Shown piece after piece: positions 7,253 through 32,987 of a stretch of 32,987 nt of DNA. The first letter of the stretch is position 1. Every line of letters starts with the position of its first letter. This DNA is from a virus. Where the stretch lies: positions 1 to 32,987 of the IMG/VR virus record IMGVR_UViG_3300031758_000309, one strand, 5' to 3'. Below the pieces are notes generated by a model that worked only from the letters and a program-made list of their open reading frames with translations, was not told the origin of the DNA and ran no database searches. Both the position numbers and the translations under genes were made by a program.

Positions 7253-7552
7253 TTATGGTCTCCAAGGAAACAGCCATGTAGCAGTTCCCGCAGCCCCTTG
7301 GTTTGAGTCAAAAATATAAGTAGGACCAGTTAAGGTCGCCTTGTTGTCATTTAATTTAGAATCCAGCAAATAGTGAAATTGAAGAGAGGGAGCATGTCCC
7401 CCATCTACGGCATCTTCTTGCTGGTGGTCTAGTTGAAGGGCATTTGATTCTTTTTGTAACTGAGCCTTCAGAGTGTTCATAATCTGAACATGCAAATTGG
7501 CATTTCTGCCCTCATAAGTGTTAGACCCTGGTGCTGCCCATCCTACTCTCAT
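7253..7552 (-). CDS. Hypothetical 99-residue protein
   Basis: Not recognised. It starts MRVGWAAPGSNTYEGRNAN, then a helical stretch (LHVQIMNTLKAQLQKESNALQ), an acidic QQEDAVDGG and a C-terminal beta-like part (ATLTGPTYIFDSNQGAAGTATWLFPW). The ATG overlaps the stop of the small terminase gene by 4 nt (ATGA), and the gene ends 23 nt before the collagen-like fibre. Translational coupling to the terminase small subunit suggests a late, virion-related role; no function can be assigned. Confidence 0.75.
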   Translation of the reverse strand: MRVGWAAPGSNTYEGRNANLHVQIMNTLKAQLQKESNALQLDHQQEDAVDGGHAPSLQFHYLLDSKLNDNKATLTGPTYIFDSNQGAAGTATWLFPWRP

Positions 7553-8016
7553 ACTTCTTCTTCCTCTACTTCAATATCAGGAATGGGCTTTGAGTTAATC
7601 TTATTTTTACTCATTTCAACAATAAGAGTTTGAAGTTCTTCATCGGTTAATTCTTTTACTGAAGTTTCAGTCTTAATATTAATGTTCTGCTGGCTCGCCA
7701 TCTGACCAGTGGCTTTCAAATACAACTCGGCACTACGAACATCACCTGCTATTCCTTTGACATATAAGGCATCTAGGAGGGCTTGTGAGCGTTCTGGAGA
7801 CTGGGTAAGCCCCTTGACAGCCAACTCCCATCTTTCTTTGAAATCTTTACGCTTTTCCCATACCTGCAGAGTATTAAAGTGAATACCATGGTCTTCTGCC
7901 CATGCCTTCTTGGTATTGGGGTTGCGGGATTCCTTGGGGGTGATTAGCCACTCCAAGTATTCTTCTTGTTGCCTTGTGAGCATCATGCGTGCTTCTTTTG
8001 CCATAAATTTATCCAA
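7549..8016 (-). CDS. terS: Terminase small subunit (putative)
   Basis: About 155 residues. Residues 36-58 (KKAWAEDHGIHFNTLQVWEKRKD) form a helix-turn-helix as in phage small terminases, followed by helical and acidic C-terminal parts (VKELTDEELQTLIVEM, then EVEEEEV). TerS recognises the packaging site and feeds DNA to TerL. The Shine-Dalgarno GAAGGAAG sits 3-5 nt before a TTG at 8016; the first ATG (8004) is too far from it, so TTG is the more likely start. It opens the late operon after a 0.5 kb gene-free region. Identification is by HTH, size and context, not by a diagnostic motif. Confidence 0.7.
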   Translation of the reverse strand: MDKFMAKEARMMLTRQQEEYLEWLITPKESRNPNTKKAWAEDHGIHFNTLQVWEKRKDFKERWELAVKGLTQSPERSQALLDALYVKGIAGDVRSAELYLKATGQMASQQNINIKTETSVKELTDEELQTLIVEMSKNKINSKPIPDIEVEEEEV

Positions 8017-8257
8017 TGCTTCCTTCGTATGGTGAAATTGTGATTATCCCTACTATTAGGCAAGACCATTACATTTCGGGGATTACGAATTATTTTTATG
8101 TTGACAGTATCTTTGAAAAGGGGGTGGGGGGTGTAGAAAATAATATGATGAGTGATTGATGATGATAGCAATGAATAGTAACAATAGGGTTTTTGAATAA
8201 TCTGTATCGCCATGGGTAGGTATAGTATCTAATTATATAGGTGGGGGTAGGGGACTG

Positions 8258-8269
8258 GGGGGTACCCCC
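8258..8269. repeat. Perfect GGGGGTACCCCC palindrome
   Basis: Twelve-base self-complementary sequence at the end of a G-rich run on the plus strand (three G tracts of four or more within 8243-8262). It could act as a protein-binding dyad, or the G tracts could form a G-quadruplex with a fourth short run. It lies about 240 bp upstream of terS. Confidence 0.6.
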
Positions 8270-8284
8270 TTACTTACTGGCTAG

Positions 8285-8339
8285 TACTGACTGGTACTGA
8301 CTGACTGGTATGGCATTGGGTATTGGGTATGGCATTGCA
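8285..8339. repeat. Short imperfect tandem repeats (TACTGACTGG and TATGGCATTGGG units)
   Basis: TACTGACTGG is followed by TACTGACTGACTGG, then TATGGCATTGGG, TATTGGG and TATGGCATTGC. These head-to-tail units in non-coding DNA beside terS resemble binding-site arrays for a small terminase or an initiator protein. That role is an inference from position and repetition. Confidence 0.6.
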
Positions 8340-8517
8340 TCCCTACTATGCATTAGTGCTTATGTCTACTCTCTATACCTAGTAAGCAATAGTCCTTGTT
8401 CTTTGCGGGCGACCAATCTAATCCGTCTTGTAGTTAAGCCGCCACTCACAGTGATGATAATGAGAATCAATGAGAATGATTAACCCTTTAGGGGAACGCA
8501 GTAGTTAAATTAAAGAA

Positions 8518-8721
8518 CTACTTCCATTTGTCAATAGGACAGAATGCATGAGGTAGTTTGACTTTGGCGGGCATAAAGCAAAAACACTTGGAACATTGCT
8601 TGGTAATCATGTAGTGCTCGCAGGACTCACAGACCTCTAGTCTTGTGGCTGCTACAGCATCGTCTACATGGTCATGTGTAAGTAGGTGCCAGGGTAATGC
8701 TGGACCATGCATCTCACTCAT
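8518..8721 (-). CDS. Small Cys-rich protein, DUF6171-like zinc module
   Basis: 67 residues. Cys at 31, 34, 43, 46, 48 and 61 (CESCEHYMITKQCSKCFCFM, then AFCPIDKW) with a conserved-looking PAKVKL segment. From memory this matches small phage proteins of the DUF6171 type, predicted to bind zinc. The ATG at 8721 overlaps the end of the 47-residue upstream gene by 8 nt, so the pair forms a mini-operon behind the promoter at 8995-8968. The actual role is unknown. Confidence 0.85.
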   Translation of the reverse strand: MSEMHGPALPWHLLTHDHVDDAVAATRLEVCESCEHYMITKQCSKCFCFMPAKVKLPHAFCPIDKWK

Positions 8722-8857
8722 TGGTTAAAGACTGTTGTAGTGCTAGGTGCTTTACTACCTCTAGGCAATAGAGCATTGTTGCCATTGGCATGTTTGATTC
8801 CCATTTGATGTTGCCGTCATCTAGGGTAATTGTTATTTGCGGCGTTTCATCTGCCAT
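8714..8857 (-). CDS. 47-residue hypothetical protein
   Basis: Short gene at ATG 8857 with a strong GGAGG 6 nt upstream. The protein begins MADETPQITITLDDGNIKWE and continues with a helical SNMPMATMLYCLEVVKHLALQQ. Short proteins with an N-terminal beta hairpin and one C-terminal helix of this kind are frequent in tailed phages with unknown function. First gene of the pair with 8518-8721. The ideal RBS, the overlap and the promoter about 110 nt upstream make it convincing despite its size. Confidence 0.75.
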   Translation of the reverse strand: MADETPQITITLDDGNIKWESNMPMATMLYCLEVVKHLALQQSLTNE

Positions 8858-8895
8858 GTTGTTCCTCCGTTTAATTTATCCGATAATAGAAGCAA

Positions 8896-8919
8896 GGGCT
8901 AAGGTAAGCACCCTAACCC
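8896..8919 (-). promoter_or_regulatory. Leader hairpin before the 47-residue gene
   Basis: On the minus-strand RNA GGGUUAGG (8919-8912) pairs with CCUUAGCCC (8904-8896), one bulged U and one G-U, around the loop GUGCUUA. The phrase GGGTGCTTA occurs again about 55 nt upstream in the same leader. The hairpin lies between the promoter at 8995-8968 and the start at 8857, so it may control the two small genes; it does not match a riboswitch I recognise. Confidence 0.5.
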
Positions 8920-8967
8920 CCACTCCTTTGCACGAAGACAATTGCAGCCCCAGGTTAAGCACCCAAT

Positions 8968-8995
8968 ACTATAATTGTTTTATTTAAGTTGTCAA
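8968..8995 (-). promoter_or_regulatory. Sigma-70 type promoter for the small-gene pair
   Basis: Reading leftwards, TTGACA (8995-8990) is followed after 16 nt by TATAGT (8973-8968), five of six matches to TATAAT, in an A/T-rich spacer. Predicted transcription starts near 8961 and runs through a structured leader of about 100 nt into the 8857 gene. This is the closest match to the housekeeping consensus that I see in the window. Confidence 0.65.
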
Positions 8996-9738
8996 GCATG
9001 TTGCCATGCCCGTCTTGGTCACTTGACCGAGAACCATAACCACCGATAATGGGGCGGGGAAAGAACCTCTGGAATGAGTTAGCAAAAGGACCAGAGGGAG
9101 GAAGCCCACACCCCACTACCGTGGTGGTAAGCAAGTACCCTCCCGAATGACTTAACCCCAATCCCTAAAGAAAAGCATTCGTACTTGCTATGAATCTATT
9201 ATAGCAGTAATAGTAAGGCATTGCTAGTAAAAACACAGGAAATCTTTGGAATATTATTGAATCAATTCCTGACTAAGTAGGTAGGGTTTAATTGTTGACT
9301 AATCCGATAGCAATTACAGGGTTTAACTTTAATTACTACCCTACAGTAAGGAAAGCATTCCCCTATCCCAATATGTGAGATGACTCGGCAATCAATATTC
9401 ACCAAAGCCAATAGTAGTAAGGGTTTTAGTTATCCACCACTCTCAGTGACCATTGCCTACTCTGTGTAGTAGTACTACCAAGCATTGTTATTCCCTCTAT
9501 TAGTAATTACCTTCTTAGTAAGCATTATTGTGTGATTGTTTTGCGGCGATTTTGTTATCCGTGGATGGTTATAACATCTGGATAGATTTATCTAAAGCAC
9601 TCTTAATCTGATTAAAATAATATTATCTAACCCGATTTTCTTTTTAGTTACTTTGTTTACATTGTTGACTAAGTTAGTAGGATTTTACTTCTTGCGGGAT
9701 TTCTAATCTCTCTAGTTACAAGGGCTCATGACCGCCCC

Positions 9739-9751
9739 GCACCTTCGGTGC
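9739..9751. promoter_or_regulatory. Stable GC hairpin in gene-free region
   Basis: GCACC and GGTGC pair perfectly around a TTC (minus: GAA) triloop. It is followed 12 bp later by another hairpin (9763-9786). Neither has a U-run close by, so tandem RNA structure is more likely than simple termination. Confidence 0.5.
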
Positions 9752-9762
9752 TCCTAGGTCTA

Positions 9763-9786
9763 GTGTCTTTTGCTTCGCAACGACAC
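9763..9786. promoter_or_regulatory. Two-part hairpin in gene-free region
   Basis: GTGTC (9763-9767) pairs with GACAC (9782-9786), and inside it TTGC (9770-9773) pairs with GCAA (9777-9780), separated by a small asymmetric internal loop. The outer flanks TCTA and TAGA extend the pairing. A two-step helix like this is typical of folded RNA. Confidence 0.5.
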
Positions 9787-9879
9787 CTGTAGATTGAGTA
9801 ACTATAATATTATTCTTACTATTTTTATTTAACTTGCTTCTAGATATATACATACTGAAAGAAAAAGAAAAAAGAGTAA

Positions 9880-10198
9880 AAAAGAAAAAGAAATATACTC
9901 TCTAGATAAGTATATGTATATGGCTTCCCCCCACTGTTTATCAGCCCTAAAGTTAATGCTGAATGGTCGCCGTAGCCAAGATTTTAAGCCGACACCAAGT
10001 TATTCTTTTTCCTTCCTCCATTAGCAAATGATGTGCGCCACTACATCGTGCTTGGACATGGGAGGGGAACCCGTTTCCGAAGTGAATAGCATTACCCTAG
10101 AGGAATATCCCAGCATCAGTCCTATTTGCTGGTCCTTGGGGGAATTAGCCCGTGCTTGCCCTGTCGCTTCCCAGCGAGGGGGTCTTGCTAACTTGTAT
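9880..10198 (-). ncRNA. Predicted structured phage RNA of about 0.3 kb
   Basis: Transcribed leftwards from the bipartite promoter at 10233-10204. Visible helices: GUUAGC (10192-10187) with GCUAAU (10149-10144), enclosing CCCU-CGCU/AGCG-AGGG (10180-10159) capped by a GGGA (GNRA) tetraloop present only on this strand; CCAGC with GCUGG (10132-10128 and 10114-10110); GAUGU with ACAUC (10047-10043 and 10034-10030); GGCUU (9990-9986) with AAGCC (9926-9922), enclosing UCAGC/GCUGA (9962-9958 and 9945-9941). It ends at AUAUAC (9915-9910) with GUAUAU (9898-9893), followed by a U-rich tract, a plausible intrinsic terminator. No known family recognised. A 58-codon plus-strand ORF inside has no RBS. Confidence 0.5.
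9893..9915 (-). terminator. Candidate intrinsic terminator of the structured RNA
   Basis: On the minus strand ATATAC and GTATAT form a 6-bp stem with an 11-nt loop, followed at once by a pyrimidine tract rich in U (9892-9857). The stem is A/U-rich and therefore weak, but the long U-rich run supports termination in this direction. Confidence 0.4.
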
Positions 10199-10203
10199 CT
10201 CTA

Positions 10204-10233
10204 ATAGTACACGATGCTGTTACCTAATGCACA
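10204..10233 (-). promoter_or_regulatory. Bipartite phage promoter element, copy B (drives structured RNA)
   Basis: Minus strand TGTGCATTAGG (10233-10223), then 13 nt, then TACTAT (10209-10204). It matches copy A at 10620-10649 in all 17 motif positions with identical spacing. There is no gene immediately downstream, only the hairpin-rich region. It lies 20 bp beyond the stop of the 43-residue gene. Confidence 0.65.
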
Positions 10234-10252
10234 ACATCTGACCGAATTTCTT

Positions 10253-10384
10253 TTACTTTTTGTTAAGACGATTCTTCTTGTTCTGATGTCTTGTTGCTGC
10301 ACGCTGTGCTGATGCCAGAAAGTCTTTATCCGACATCTTCTCCCACTTGGTGCTTATCTTGTTCGTTTTGTATTTGCGTGCCAT
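10253..10384 (-). CDS. 43-residue basic protein
   Basis: Start chosen at ATG 10384, just after AAAGAGA; longer in-frame starts run into the upstream gene. The protein (MARKYKTNKISTKWEKM, then ASAQRAATRHQNKKNRLNKK) is strongly basic and probably one or two helices, suggesting nucleic-acid binding. It follows the 46-residue gene by 7 nt, forming a two-gene unit. No family recognised. Tiny early genes near a divergent promoter in phages often encode host-takeover factors; that is inference only. Confidence 0.6.
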   Translation of the reverse strand: MARKYKTNKISTKWEKMSDKDFLASAQRAATRHQNKKNRLNKK

Positions 10385-10391
10385 GTTCTCT

Positions 10392-10532
10392 TTACAATTT
10401 GTTAAGCAGTGCTTCAATGAGTTGTGCGGTTTCGGCATCAATATCGGTGCCGTAGTCCTTTTGCACTACTCGCAATACTCTCCACAGGTCGTAGAGGACT
10501 GCATCCTTCATTTCTTGCTCGGTCAGTTCCAT
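10392..10532 (-). CDS. 46-residue acidic helical protein
   Basis: Start ATG 10532 with an ideal AAGGAG 6 nt upstream. The sequence (MELTEQEMKDAVLYDLWRVL, then VVQKDYGTDIDAETAQLIEALLNKL) reads as two amphipathic helices, with no cysteines or membrane segment. It lies divergently from the plus-strand operon, separated by 167 bp, and is co-transcribed with the basic 43-residue gene. The acidic/basic pairing could mean that the two products interact. No family recognised. Confidence 0.75.
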   Translation of the reverse strand: MELTEQEMKDAVLYDLWRVLRVVQKDYGTDIDAETAQLIEALLNKL

Positions 10533-10619
10533 GTTGGACTCCTTACTAGGGGATGACATCAGTGTAGCAGATAACTTCAGACCATGTTGTAACTCTCCAA
10601 AAGAAATCTTAGAAAGTTC

Positions 10620-10649
10620 TGTGCATTAGGAATCAATATGTGTTACTAT
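10620..10649 (+). promoter_or_regulatory. Bipartite phage promoter element, copy A (plus-strand operon)
   Basis: TGTGCATTAGG (10620-10630), 13 nt, TACTAT (10644-10649), located 50 bp before the HNH gene that opens the plus-strand operon. The -10-like part is acceptable; the upstream part is unlike TTGACA. Downstream, TGCAGG (10657-10662) pairs with CCTGCA (10671-10676), making a leader hairpin just before the ribosome binding site. Confidence 0.65.
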
Positions 10650-10678
10650 GTATGTATGCAGGAAAGGAAGCCTGCAGA

Positions 10679-10691
10679 TTTAAACGAAGGA
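10679..10691 (+). promoter_or_regulatory. Leader/RBS element TTTAAACGAAGGA
   Basis: Carries the AAGG Shine-Dalgarno of the HNH gene. The same TTAAACGAAGGA phrase stands before the scaffold gene (31120-31108) and the 97-residue gene (27872-27860), so it is a repeated translation-initiation element of this phage. Confidence 0.6.
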
Positions 10692-10699
10692 TGGTTTTT

Positions 10700-11143
10700 A
10701 TGCCAAAGAAATATGACAAAGACCAGGACAGAATCAACGAGAATGTTCTGGAAGACGACAACGGTTGCTGGATTTGGCAACTGGGTCTAGACAACTGGGG
10801 CTATGGTATGTCCCGTATTAACGGTAAGCAAGATAAGGCTCACCGTGTTGCTTATAGGGCTTTCATTGATGAGATTCCTGCGGGCAAGTCAGTGCTCCAC
10901 ATGTGTGATGTGCGTGCCTGCGTCAATCCTGACCACTTGTACTGCGGTACCCAGAAAGACAACATGCGTGATGCCATTGAAAGGGGTCGCTTGAACAAGA
11001 CAAGAACCCGACTCACCGTGGAGCAGAAGAAGCAGTTGACTGTTCTCAAGGCCAATGGTGCAACCAAGGCTGAGATTGCCGAGGTATTCGGTGTAGCACA
11101 ACAAACAGTACAGAGATATTGGAAGGATTACAATGCCAAATAA
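10700..11143 (+). CDS. HNH endonuclease with C-terminal helix-turn-helix
   Basis: 147 residues from ATG 10700, chosen because AAGG ends 9 nt upstream; an earlier in-frame ATG (10691) overlaps the RBS and starts at 10640 have none. Residues 67-79 (HMCDVRACVNPDH) hold the HNH core with H67, N77 and H79 and structural C70, C74 and C82, typical of HNH_3-type nucleases. The last 40 residues are a separate HTH (LKANGATKAEIAEVFGVAQQTVQRYW). The fold matches free-standing phage homing-type nucleases, nicking or cutting DNA at a specific site. First gene of the plus operon, so it may serve the phage rather than only itself. Strong identification, unknown target. Confidence 0.9.
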   Translation: MPKKYDKDQDRINENVLEDDNGCWIWQLGLDNWGYGMSRINGKQDKAHRVAYRAFIDEIPAGKSVLHMCDVRACVNPDHLYCGTQKDNMRDAIERGRLNKTRTRLTVEQKKQLTVLKANGATKAEIAEVFGVAQQTVQRYWKDYNAK

Positions 11144-11288
11144 ATTTAACAAAGCACAGCATAGAAAGCCAAAGGATGACCATCACAAAAAGGCAGGTAA
11201 GTTAATTATCCGCAAAGCCGATGGCACCGTAGAAGAAAAGCCAGCCATGACTAGGGCAGAAGCAGAAAAGATTATCTATGGAAAGTAA
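11133..11288 (+). CDS. 51-residue basic protein linking HNH and glycosyltransferase genes
   Basis: ATG 11133 has GGAAGG 6 nt upstream, overlaps the HNH stop by 11 nt, and its own stop overlaps the next start by 11 nt, an arrangement that supports expression. It is polar and basic at the N-terminus (MPNKFNKAQHRKPKDDHHKK), with a beta-like KLIIRKADGTVEE and a final helix TRAEAEKIIYGK. No family recognised. Confidence 0.7.
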   Translation: MPNKFNKAQHRKPKDDHHKKAGKLIIRKADGTVEEKPAMTRAEAEKIIYGK

Positions 11289-12387
11289 TTACAAATACCG
11301 AGTTGCAGTAGTGTCAATTTGTAAAAATGAAGAACAATTTATTGAACGCTGGGCAGAAAGTGCAAAGGATGCTGATGAAATATGGCTACTTGATACTGGC
11401 TCTACTGATTCTAGTGTTGAACTTGCTAAGCGTAAAGGTGTAAATGTTTTAACTAAGACATTTGACCCATGGCGTTTTGACCATGCTCGCAACCATCTAT
11501 TGGAACTTCTTCCTCCTGATATTGATTATGTTATCAATTTAGATGTTGATGAAGTGCTTGTTGCGGGCTGGCGAGAAGCATTGGAGACAGTGCACCCCGA
11601 TGTCACTCGTCCACGCTACAAATATGTGTGGTCGTGGAAGAACGAGGAGACTGGCGAAGAGGGACTTGTGTACCAAGGCGACAAGATTGTTAGCAGGCAT
11701 GGCTACAAGTGGAAGCACCCCGTTCACGAGGTGATGATTCCGCAGGACGGCATGCAGGAAGTGCAGGCAACTGTTGAAGGTTTGGAGATTCATCATCATC
11801 CCGACAGCACCAAGTCACGCAGTCAGTATTTGCCACTATTGATTCAGGCTGTTGCCGAAGACCCAGAAGATGACCGCAACACCTATTACTGCGCTAGGGA
11901 ATTATATTTCAATGCACAGTTGGAAGCATCGGTTAATCTATTTAAAACGCACCTGAGCCTTCCTAGGGCACAATGGAGACCAGAGAGAGCATGGTCTATG
12001 CGCTACATCGCAAAGATGATTCCTGCTGAGCGTGAGCATTGGTTATTGCGTGCCGTTGCTGAGTACCCAGAAGGTCGTGAGCCATGGGTTGACTTGGCAA
12101 AGTTCTACCACGAAAAGCAATGGTGGGCATCCTGTTACTTTGCAGCGACTCGTGCCCTTGCTATTGAAAGCAAACCTCTTCTATACTTGAATGAAGAAGA
12201 AGCATGGTCATATTTGCCATGGGATTTAGCGGCACTTAGTGCTTATCACTTAAAAATGTATGACAAAGCAGTTGAATTAAATGAACAAGCATTACTATTA
12301 AATAAAGAAGATGAACGACTCGTTAAGAACCACCAGTTCTACATGATGAAGTTCTATCCACAACTACAACAAAAGAAGGAAAGTTAA
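11278..12387 (+). CDS. GT2-family glycosyltransferase with helical repeat C-terminus
   Basis: 369 residues. The N-terminal domain (about 8-120) is GT-A: VSICKNEE at the nucleotide-sugar site, LLDTGSTDSSVELA, and the metal-binding acidic motif LDVDE (D89, D91). KHPVHEV (about 146-152) and HHHPDSTKSR follow, as in the SunS/tetratricopeptide-linked GT2 group. From about 190 to the end, helices with TPR-like spacing (YYCARELYFNAQLEASVNLF, AYHLKMYDKAVELNEQALLL) probably hold the acceptor. It transfers a sugar from a nucleotide donor to protein or glycan. In a phage it may decorate virion fibres or alter host surface or DNA; the Thr-rich collagen-like fibre is a possible acceptor (inference). No signal peptide, so cytoplasmic. 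Confidence 0.9.
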   Translation: MESNYKYRVAVVSICKNEEQFIERWAESAKDADEIWLLDTGSTDSSVELAKRKGVNVLTKTFDPWRFDHARNHLLELLPPDIDYVINLDVDEVLVAGWREALETVHPDVTRPRYKYVWSWKNEETGEEGLVYQGDKIVSRHGYKWKHPVHEVMIPQDGMQEVQATVEGLEIHHHPDSTKSRSQYLPLLIQAVAEDPEDDRNTYYCARELYFNAQLEASVNLFKTHLSLPRAQWRPERAWSMRYIAKMIPAEREHWLLRAVAEYPEGREPWVDLAKFYHEKQWWASCYFAATRALAIESKPLLYLNEEEAWSYLPWDLAALSAYHLKMYDKAVELNEQALLLNKEDERLVKNHQFYMMKFYPQLQQKKES

Positions 12388-14945: not shown

Positions 14946-15124
14946 TGAATGATAATTATCACTACGCACAGATGATACTGACAATGATTGTAACAGTCTG
15001 TCTTGTTTATCTGGCACTGAACAACTTCGCATTGTTTTTAGCAATGGCGACATTCCAGTTGGTGCTTTTGGGCATCGTTATCTGGAGGAGTAATCGTGAA
15101 ATTCCAAATGGAAATAAACAATAA
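14945..15124 (+). CDS. Holin-like small membrane protein (59 residues)
   Basis: ATG 14945 lies inside the TAA of the M15 peptidase gene. Two hydrophobic segments: residues 9-25 (QMILTMIVTVCLVYLAL) and 28-47 (FALFLAMATFQLVLLGIVIW), then a charged tail RSNREIPNGNKQ, the usual two-span holin plan. Its end overlaps the sigma-like gene by 29 nt. The pairing with an endolysin makes it the best holin candidate on this strand. Confidence 0.7.
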   Translation: MNDNYHYAQMILTMIVTVCLVYLALNNFALFLAMATFQLVLLGIVIWRSNREIPNGNKQ

Positions 15125-15461
15125 CAAAGAGATTCCATTTGAACCCTCTCAAATGCGATTTTTACCGCAGACTCAGGATATCCCTGTCTACTTCTTTGAT
15201 GACCAAGATGAAGGTCTCAGCGAACTAAGAGAGATAGTTAAAGACTGCGTAGAGTATCTATGTCCCCAAGATAGATTTATCATTGAAGCCATTTACTACG
15301 AGCAAGTTACTTATGAGGTCCTCGGTGAAAGGCTCGGTGTGTCTAATGTCCACGCATGGCGCTTAGCCAAAACTGCAATAAAAAACCTTCAATGCCAGTT
15401 GCTTACTAATGAATATGTAACTGATTATTTAGACTTAGGCGGGGGCGATGAAGAACAATGA
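15096..15461 (+). CDS. Sigma-70 region 4-like regulator
   Basis: 121 residues from GTG 15096, with GGAGGAG 5 nt upstream. Residues about 54-100 (LCPQDRFIIEAIYYEQVTYE, then VLGERLGVSNVHAWRLAKTA) match a sigma region 4 helix-turn-helix, which contacts the -35 element and the RNA polymerase flap. Regions 2 and 3 are absent, so it is not a full sigma factor; the first 50 residues are unlike known domains. It could redirect host polymerase to phage promoters such as the TGTGCATTAGG element (inference). It overlaps the holin-like gene upstream and the acidic gene downstream (14 nt). Confidence 0.8.
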   Translation: MKFQMEINNNKEIPFEPSQMRFLPQTQDIPVYFFDDQDEGLSELREIVKDCVEYLCPQDRFIIEAIYYEQVTYEVLGERLGVSNVHAWRLAKTAIKNLQCQLLTNEYVTDYLDLGGGDEEQ

Positions 15462-31147: not shown

Positions 31148-32987
31148 TTACATCCCGCCTTGTAGGAATGGCAGTATCTGCTCCATTATCTCAGGCGGAA
31201 TCTGTTCTGGCGTAATTTCACCAGTTTGGAGAGCATCAAGAATTGCTAGTATTTCTTGGGGAATTTCACCCTCTGGTGCCATCGGTGCACCCATTTCAGG
31301 TGCCATAGGTGGTGCCATTTCAGGTGCCATTCCCTGTTCTTGCTCTGCCAATAAATCATTTAATGCTTGCGCTACCTCTGGAGGCAACTGGTCAGGGGTT
31401 ATTTCGCCCCTCTGAAGAGCCTCAAGTATTGCCATAAGTTCTTCTTCTTGTGGTAATTCTGGACCTTCGCCTTCTGGCATTGGAGGCATACCACCCTGTG
31501 GTGCCCCTGCCATCATTTGCTCCATACCAGGGGGTAGACCTTCTGGACCCATGGGAGGCATGCCTTCGGGTCCACCCTCTGGTGGTGGAGGAGGTGCCAT
31601 CAAGAAAGATTCTGGATTCTTTACACCGAATCCTGTACCAAGTACATACTCAGCCAGTTTTTCCATGTTTACGATGCCAGCAGCAGCAAATGGTTGCATT
31701 GCCGAAACCATCTGGAGCGCCATATCACGGCGGAAAGCCTCATTGCGTGGAGCAGTAGAACCAGCCTCAACAGTAAAGTCAAACTCACCGTTAATATAAT
31801 CCTTGTCAAACTTAAGCCAGATAGGGGCGTTCTCTGTTCCGATAACACGAATGGTCTGTTCCTCGGTCATGAACTGCTGTGCAAGTTTAATTAAATTCTC
31901 TGCACAATGAGCAATTGAATTTTCAATACTTACCAGTTTTTCAGAAACACGAGCGTTGGATGCCTCGGCAATAATTGATGCTTCACGGGCAGTACGAGTT
32001 GTCTCTGGAATTGCACCACGCTGGTACTCGGAGATACCCGACACACGGTCAATGTCGTTTGTAATCAACGAAGACTGGTTGTAAAACTCAGGCGGGTTAA
32101 TGACCGCTGGCATGGGGACAATAACATTATTTAAGTTTTCATTTCCTTTAACGGGAACGATAACATTGTCATCATCCGATACCAGAGCAGCACGACCAAA
32201 ATCATCAAATGCTGACTCGGAGAACAACCACTTGCGTGAATAACGCTTTCTGTGGTTCATCATCTGTGTACGGGTCTCGTTTAATTCATACTGTAATGGC
32301 TCAATGGCTTCCAACTCACCCATTGGGTAGAAATAGTTAGGAATGTCATAGTCACGAAGCATGACGAATGGATGACCAAATACATAAGGAATTTTGGTTG
32401 GCTTAACAAGGAACTTGTCTCCACCAGTATCAGCAAAAATACTCATGGTTCCTGCGTTGATGTCGTAGTATTCATAAACATCGCAGTAAGCCTCATCCTC
32501 TGAATATGTATAATTTGCATTAGGTGCACCACTGTTTGTATTGCCCCATCTTGCATATGATGATGCACTTACTTCTTTGCGGGCAGCATAATCATAACGC
32601 TGGTCATTCTGTACATCTTTAAGTGGACGGCGTGAACGCTGTGCAATCCAACGGATATCGCTCATGCAGGTTGCATCTGGGTCAACGAACATGTCAAATG
32701 GGTCAACACGCTCAAGGAATGGTCTGTCCTCACGAATAACCATAACTGATTCAACCTGACCAGTTGGCACATTTTCAGTAGCCTCATCAGCCGTCTCTTC
32801 AATGTCATCAAGTTTCTTTTCTTCAACGAAACGATAGCCAGTCTTAATCCATCCATGACCAATAATCAAAGAATCTTTAACTGAACGCTGGAACTCTGGT
32901 TGACAGCCATAATGTTGCCACCAGTAGTTAATGATTGCTTCAGTAAGAATTGCTTTATCACCATCTTCTGGACGGCGTGGATTAACT
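31148..32987 (-). CDS. Portal protein, main part and C-terminus
   Basis: Continuation of the gene that starts at 360, read leftwards across the junction to the stop at 31148 (690 residues in total). Portal features include RVDPFDMFVDPDA and DIRWIAQRSRRP in the wing, and a long helical stem/crown with GISEYQRGAIPETTRTAREA, a common portal signature in podoviruses. The C-terminus is a Pro/Met/Gly/Glu-rich tail holding two copies of an approximately 33-residue unit (about residues 590-624 and 654-690) built around EITPxQxPPE. It lies directly upstream of scaffold and major capsid genes, the usual order. The identification rests on motifs and context; sure of portal, unsure what the tail does. 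Confidence 0.9.
   Translation of the reverse strand, partial: VNPRRPEDGDKAILTEAIINYWWQHYGCQPEFQRSVKDSLIIGHGWIKTGYRFVEEKKLDDIEETADEATENVPTGQVESVMVIREDRPFLERVDPFDMFVDPDATCMSDIRWIAQRSRRPLKDVQNDQRYDYAARKEVSASSYARWGNTNSGAPNANYTYSEDEAYCDVYEYYDINAGTMSIFADTGGDKFLVKPTKIPYVFGHPFVMLRDYDIPNYFYPMGELEAIEPLQYELNETRTQMMNHRKRYSRKWLFSESAFDDFGRAALVSDDDNVIVPVKGNENLNNVIVPMPAVINPPEFYNQSSLITNDIDRVSGISEYQRGAIPETTRTAREASIIAEASNARVSEKLVSIENSIAHCAENLIKLAQQFMTEEQTIRVIGTENAPIWLKFDKDYINGEFDFTVEAGSTAPRNEAFRRDMALQMVSAMQPFAAAGIVNMEKLAEYVLGTGFGVKNPESFLMAPPPPPEGGPEGMPPMGPEGLPPGMEQMMAGAPQGGMPPMPEGEGPELPQEEELMAILEALQRGEITPDQLPPEVAQALNDLLAEQEQGMAPEMAPPMAPEMGAPMAPEGEIPQEILAILDALQTGEITPEQIPPEIMEQILPFLQGGM
32861..32987. repeat. Terminal direct repeat, right copy
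   Basis: Exact second copy of positions 1-127. Removing one copy gives a circle of 32,860 bp and joins the two halves of the portal gene in frame. Confidence 0.95.

Follow-up and report, generated by a model that had tools for sequence, protein, structure and literature searches.

A mirrored, phage-specific promoter-like element at the divergence point of a two-arm tailed-phage genome and the probable untranslated leader of its late operon

The window analyzed here is the whole 32,987-nucleotide stretch of viral DNA. Its first and last 127 bp (positions 1 to 127 and 32861 to 32987) were identical, forming an exact terminal direct repeat, and the portal gene spanned the joint of the map, with its N terminus encoded at positions 1 to 360 and the remainder at the right end, an overlap judged against the relative L006. 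The exact terminal repeat and the portal gene across the joint show that the window is the complete circular genome map, 32,860 bp long, of a tailed phage. The open reading frame (ORF) table contained only two gene arms, which diverge near 10.2 to 10.7 kb and converge near 16.2 kb. The rightward early arm (10.6 to 16.2 kb) carries, among others, genes for an HNH endonuclease (10700 to 11143, plus strand), a glycosyltransferase, RusA, and a sigma-70 region-4 protein (15096 to 15461, plus strand; Pfam PF04545, 25.5 bits against a cut-off of 24.1; PHROG sigma factor, E value of 5.2e-7). The leftward late arm, approximately 27 kb long, starts at 10.2 kb, crosses position 1, continues around the map to 16.2 kb, and encodes the terminase small subunit, a collagen-type tail fibre, the large terminase, the portal, the major capsid protein, and a 1625-residue protein. 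Of the conserved structural genes in this arm, the first is the terminase small subunit-like gene, terS (7549 to 8016, minus strand; PHROG terminase small subunit, E value of 3.5e-5). The same two-arm layout was present in MW202803, a complete circular phage whose large terminase is 50% identical to that of the window.

Several other features of the map were recorded. The HNH genes of relatives occupied other spots within the same noncoding region, in either orientation, as expected for mobile genes. Close to the start of the late arm, 8518 to 8721 (minus strand) encodes a small cysteine-rich protein of family DUF6171 that was conserved in the relatives L004 and L006. A search of bacterial genomes with the large terminase gave a single match, at 36% in one Ktedonobacteria bin, and was rejected as a host assignment. 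Freshwater Nanopelagicales phages likewise carry a sigma-70 factor, a glycosyltransferase, and collagen-like proteins, which we treat as a lead only (PMC10202952).

Where the two arms of this complete genome diverge, a phage-specific promoter-like sequence is present in two copies that face away from each other. The late-arm copy, TGTGCATTAGGTAACAGCATCGTGTACTAT, occupies 10204 to 10233 on the minus strand and consists of TGTGCATT as a -35-like half and TACTAT as the -10 half, which would place the start of transcription near 10197. The mirror copy, with the same two-part motif, lies at 10620 to 10649 on the plus strand and heads the rightward early arm. A shared 30-mer pattern, derived from the same two sites that it matches, found only 10233 to 10204 (minus) and 10620 to 10649 (plus) in the genome, with 0 matches expected in shuffled sequence. 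The core TGTGCA-N17-19-TACTAT occurred exactly twice in the genome, once per arm head, and once in the relative L082 (genome G009), at the homologous late position ahead of the late genes. It was absent from 17 other related records, and reversed controls gave no match. Since most related records do not have the motif, we regard it as lineage specific. The full 30-mer pattern was found in no other contig in the viral-contig scans, and a scan with the promoter pattern beyond the contig of L082 gave four matches, all inside unrelated phages and judged to be chance. The two divergent start regions of L082, early and late, likewise have a sequence in common, TA(C/A)(T/A)ATGTAGTTACT.

The element at 10233 to 10204 does not fit the sigma-70 consensus and was missing from the list produced by a scan for that consensus. 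The gap-free inverted match between the two copies covers 22 of 30 positions, a value that 1 of 12 shuffles also reached and that alone is not decisive; the case for a promoter was built on the bipartite motif, the places where it lies, and its presence in L082. On these sequence criteria, the bipartite minus-strand promoter proposed in a preliminary description of this DNA was confirmed as a real, phage-specific element beyond chance. The same description had called it dedicated to a small RNA, a view that was given up because the circular map puts it at the head of the approximately 27-kb late arm. The recurrence of the motif in a relative and its position heading a gene arm give good support to a predicted leftward transcript that runs from near 10197 across gene-free DNA; the exact start, the direction of use, and the timing of transcription are what we infer from the arrangement. 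Two small genes lie on the minus strand between the promoters, one upstream of the late promoter (10253 to 10384; 44 codons including the stop; codon-use score of +0.27) and one farther back (10392 to 10559; 55 amino acids; codon-use score of +0.15). These genes need a promoter of their own, and therefore other leftward starts exist.

After the leftward promoter copy, 1.34 kb of noncoding DNA is followed by the terS, tail fibre, large terminase (terL), portal, and capsid genes. The locus thus has a promoter in front of the structural-gene arm, then untranslated DNA, and then late genes, which is the arrangement of a late-operon leader. The leader (8858 to 10197, minus strand) was delimited with the ORF tables, a codon-use test, and an alignment with L004, in which insertions and deletions fell out of frame. 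In the codon-use test, no frame of 9880 to 10200 was coding-like, and most of the small genes tested did match phage codon use; the longest plus-strand ORF within 9880 to 10200 had no family match. The gene-free DNA reaches to 8857. The start codon of a small gene lies there, preceded by a purine-rich (GGAGG) ribosome-binding site, and L004 has a counterpart of this gene. Because the gene-free DNA runs on to this point, the interval first flagged as a candidate RNA (9880 to 10198, minus strand) makes up the initial quarter of an approximately 1.34-kb untranslated leader and is best described as its promoter-proximal part. The earlier claim that the promoter points into gene-free DNA was thus upheld, although that DNA extends over 1.34 kb and not just the roughly 300 nt of the predicted RNA.

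We compared the flagged interval with related and unrelated sequences. The contigs of the nearest relatives, L002 (identical over the overlap), L004 (terL 94% identical), and L006, end before or short of this core, and the syntenic relatives L055, L060, L071, and L082 have unrelated sequence or genes at its position. In L082, the promoter is followed by a gene for a 142-residue protein with a weak OB-fold match and then by a long noncoding stretch. No homologue of 9880 to 10198 was found in the viral-contig and genome scans, and a DNA search of phage records gave no match. The contig L146 was considered as the right half of the genome of L004 and was rejected as unrelated and GC rich.

One reading of such a poorly conserved interval is that it is a spacer that is not transcribed, such as a decayed gene or a segment of a site for packaging or replication. 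Packaging sites are often located by terS, and the whole noncoding block adjoins this gene. We consider a spacer of this kind very unlikely, since a promoter is directed into the interval, no iterons or clear repeats were found (the frequency of the candidate iteron TAGTCAACAATTAAA was at chance level), no similarity to the OB-fold gene carried by L082 was detected that would mark a decayed copy, and the conserved blocks described below lie at least 500 nt downstream, outside the core.

We then asked how the interval folds. The preliminary description had proposed a hairpin-dense RNA with at least six perfect helices. The minus-strand fold of 10198 to 9880 had a z score of -0.96, with 17 of 100 shuffles at least as stable, and 150-nt windows inside the interval gave z scores of about -0.2 to 0.7. 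Perfect helices of at least 6 bp with a span of up to 100 nt numbered 4, versus 4.7 ± 2.1 in shuffles, and helices of at least 5 bp numbered 23, versus 18.3 ± 4.5, a count that 30 of 200 shuffles reached. Helix count and folding energy are no better than those of shuffled sequence, and the proposal of a hairpin-dense RNA was not borne out. The GNRA-closed helix does exist, as a 5-bp hairpin with a GGGA loop at 10164 to 10177 (minus strand), and only in this orientation; such a hairpin was present in 1.5% of shuffles, and this one was chosen post hoc among many features open to remark. Outside the flagged interval, two neat hairpins (GTGTC..GACAC and GCACC-GAA-GGTGC) were seen at 9700 to 9860, with fold z scores of about -2.1 to -2.6, better than those of the interval itself.

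Known RNA families were also sought. ARAGORN reported no tRNA or tmRNA, and Rfam at its gathering threshold gave no match in the window, in agreement with the earlier statement that the sequence does not resemble tRNA, tmRNA, RNase P, or 6S RNA. When 8000 to 11300 was searched with permissive filters and E values of up to 5, Rfam gave only two weak matches, both outside the candidate, and no match was obtained with the covariance models of GOLLD, ROOL, and HEARO. These RNAs invite comparison, since the window also has a gene-free stretch in a phage and, as in HEARO, an HNH gene nearby. The window differs in having no covariance-model match and no structure above chance, and its HNH gene lies on the opposite strand, approximately 470 bp away and outside the candidate RNA. 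That the interval encodes a new large structured noncoding RNA of this class is thus highly improbable: gene-free DNA with its own promoter and the GNRA hairpin speak for it, whereas the empty Rfam searches, the chance level of helix number and energy, and the lack of anything similar in relatives, L082 having a protein gene in the interval, speak against it.

The far end of the interval offers a possible 3' end. An AU hairpin (at about 9915 to 9893, minus strand), weak at -4.7 kcal/mol, is followed by a U-rich pyrimidine tract of 37 nt with one purine (9893 to 9857), which exceeds every other pyrimidine tract of the genome in length. The terminator scanner requires three G-C pairs, which this site does not have, and leaves it out of its list. 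The stem and the U-rich run named in the preliminary description as the 3' end are both real, but the hairpin is weak, and together they may form a weak terminator or an attenuator near 9890. If so, a discrete terminated leader RNA of approximately 300 nt (10197 to about 9890) might accumulate and act by itself, in the manner of the abundant Pleft RNA of mycobacteriophages L5 and D29 or of the short lambda pR' transcript before antitermination. The strong case for the promoter, the position of the tract 300 nt downstream of it behind the hairpin, and the GC-rich insert at 10028 to 10204 (52.5% GC, versus 35 to 44% elsewhere in the noncoding parts) all favor such an RNA, and there is precedent for it. 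We nevertheless judge it unlikely, since the interval has no fold signal, none of the collections searched held a homologue, the corresponding interval of L082 contains a protein gene, and the AU hairpin is weak. A fuller version, in which a separate, stable RNA of approximately 300 nt is made from the late promoter, ends at the U tract, has a fold unlike known families, and affects the host or the timing of late-gene expression, while the sigma region-4 protein switches both arms via one mirrored promoter class, seems to us more doubtful still.

The closest precedent in the literature consulted is, by analogy and with no descent claimed, the Pleft transcript of L5 and D29, a noncoding leader of approximately 500 nt that terminates in approximately 90% of cases and is processed (PMC5712189). 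The likeness to Pleft of L5, D29, and StarStuff lies in a promoter at the head of an arm, several hundred gene-free bases, a proposed 3' end ahead of the first gene, and no conserved ORF. Pleft, however, is an early promoter close to an end of the genome, and RNA sequencing and Northern blotting have revealed its RNA (PMC5712189), whereas the promoter described here heads the late arm and its transcript is a prediction; the window also has no DNA similarity to any phage record. The lambda pR'/tR' region offers a second parallel, again with no descent claimed, in that a late promoter is followed by a short leader, a terminator (a possible one in the window), and then all the late genes. For the pR' leaders of lambdoid phages, control is exerted by Q, at a qut site and a terminator (PMC6266700). 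The hairpin of the window differs in being AU only, and its sigma region-4 protein suggests control at initiation instead. Neither a qut site nor a Q homologue was identified, the Q family being absent among the proteins scanned, which represented part of the genes.

Farther down the leader, comparison with relatives revealed short conserved blocks, two of them hairpins that were compared in two or three sequences, too few for proof of structure. The first, UCUCA...UGGGA (9360 to 9388, minus strand), was identical in L004 and partly so in L082, with its pairs kept through one-sided changes. The second, GCAUG-GCAA-CAUGC with a GNRA loop (8989 to 9016, minus strand), was identical to L004 at 28 of 28 positions; its flanks were approximately 60% identical in L004, and a few predicted pairs nearby have changes on both sides. 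A further block, TCGCC(C)GC..AA, is present on the minus strand at 9536 to 9549 and again at 8396 to 8412, upstream of terS. It also occurs twice in L004 and in L082 and in a variant form in L028, L055, and others, and it is possibly a packaging or regulatory site. A scan for the conserved blocks gave one additional match only, in L189, which was judged to be chance. Two observations concern the DNA upstream of terS more generally. A cluster of G/C runs (GGGGGTACCCCCC...) at 8240 to 8265 (minus strand), approximately 250 nt before terS, has similar counterparts in L004 and L082 and is a candidate packaging site, and (A/T)ACCACTCTGGGTGTTC, which is not in this window, is conserved in the noncoding region upstream of terS in about 12 related loci (L028, L034, L042, L045, L053, L055, L060, and L071 among them).

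Taken together, the arrangement of the locus suggests that the flagged interval is probably the late promoter of this small (32.86-kb) tailed phage together with the initial 300 nt of its long, untranslated late-operon leader. A consensus-like sigma-70 site that the promoter scan placed at 8995 to 8968 counts against this reading, since it could be another start for the late genes. The other leftward starts that the small genes between the promoters call for, the absence of the motif from most related records, and the weakness of the AU hairpin also count against it. Under the late-operon-leader reading, the early rightward genes, including that of the sigma-70 region-4 protein, would be expressed first, and this protein would direct host RNA polymerase to TGTGCATT/TACTAT promoters. 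The mirrored promoters would start both arms, the leftward copy starting the late transcript of approximately 27 kb. In a weaker step of the model, some polymerases may terminate near 9890, where the AU hairpin and U tract lie, giving a leader RNA of approximately 300 nt that would be a by-product or an attenuation device, and the remaining polymerases would read through the conserved hairpins at 9388 to 9360 and 9016 to 8989 into the late genes. The sigma region-4 protein is a candidate factor for both promoters, to which it is linked by co-occurrence only. In T4, the sigma-like gp55/gp33 act in late control, at late promoters that have no -35-like half. A small sigma-domain protein and a phage-specific promoter class are common to both systems, whereas only a region-4 domain was found in the protein of the window, and the motif does have a -35-like half.

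A late promoter with a leader is ordinary in kind, and the structure of this promising-looking region, first described as hairpin dense, does not go beyond chance. What the locus offers is a proposed control layout for uncultivated small tailed phages, in which two arms would share one phage-specific promoter class and a candidate phage factor, and a late leader that is unusually long and untranslated, with short blocks conserved in relatives.
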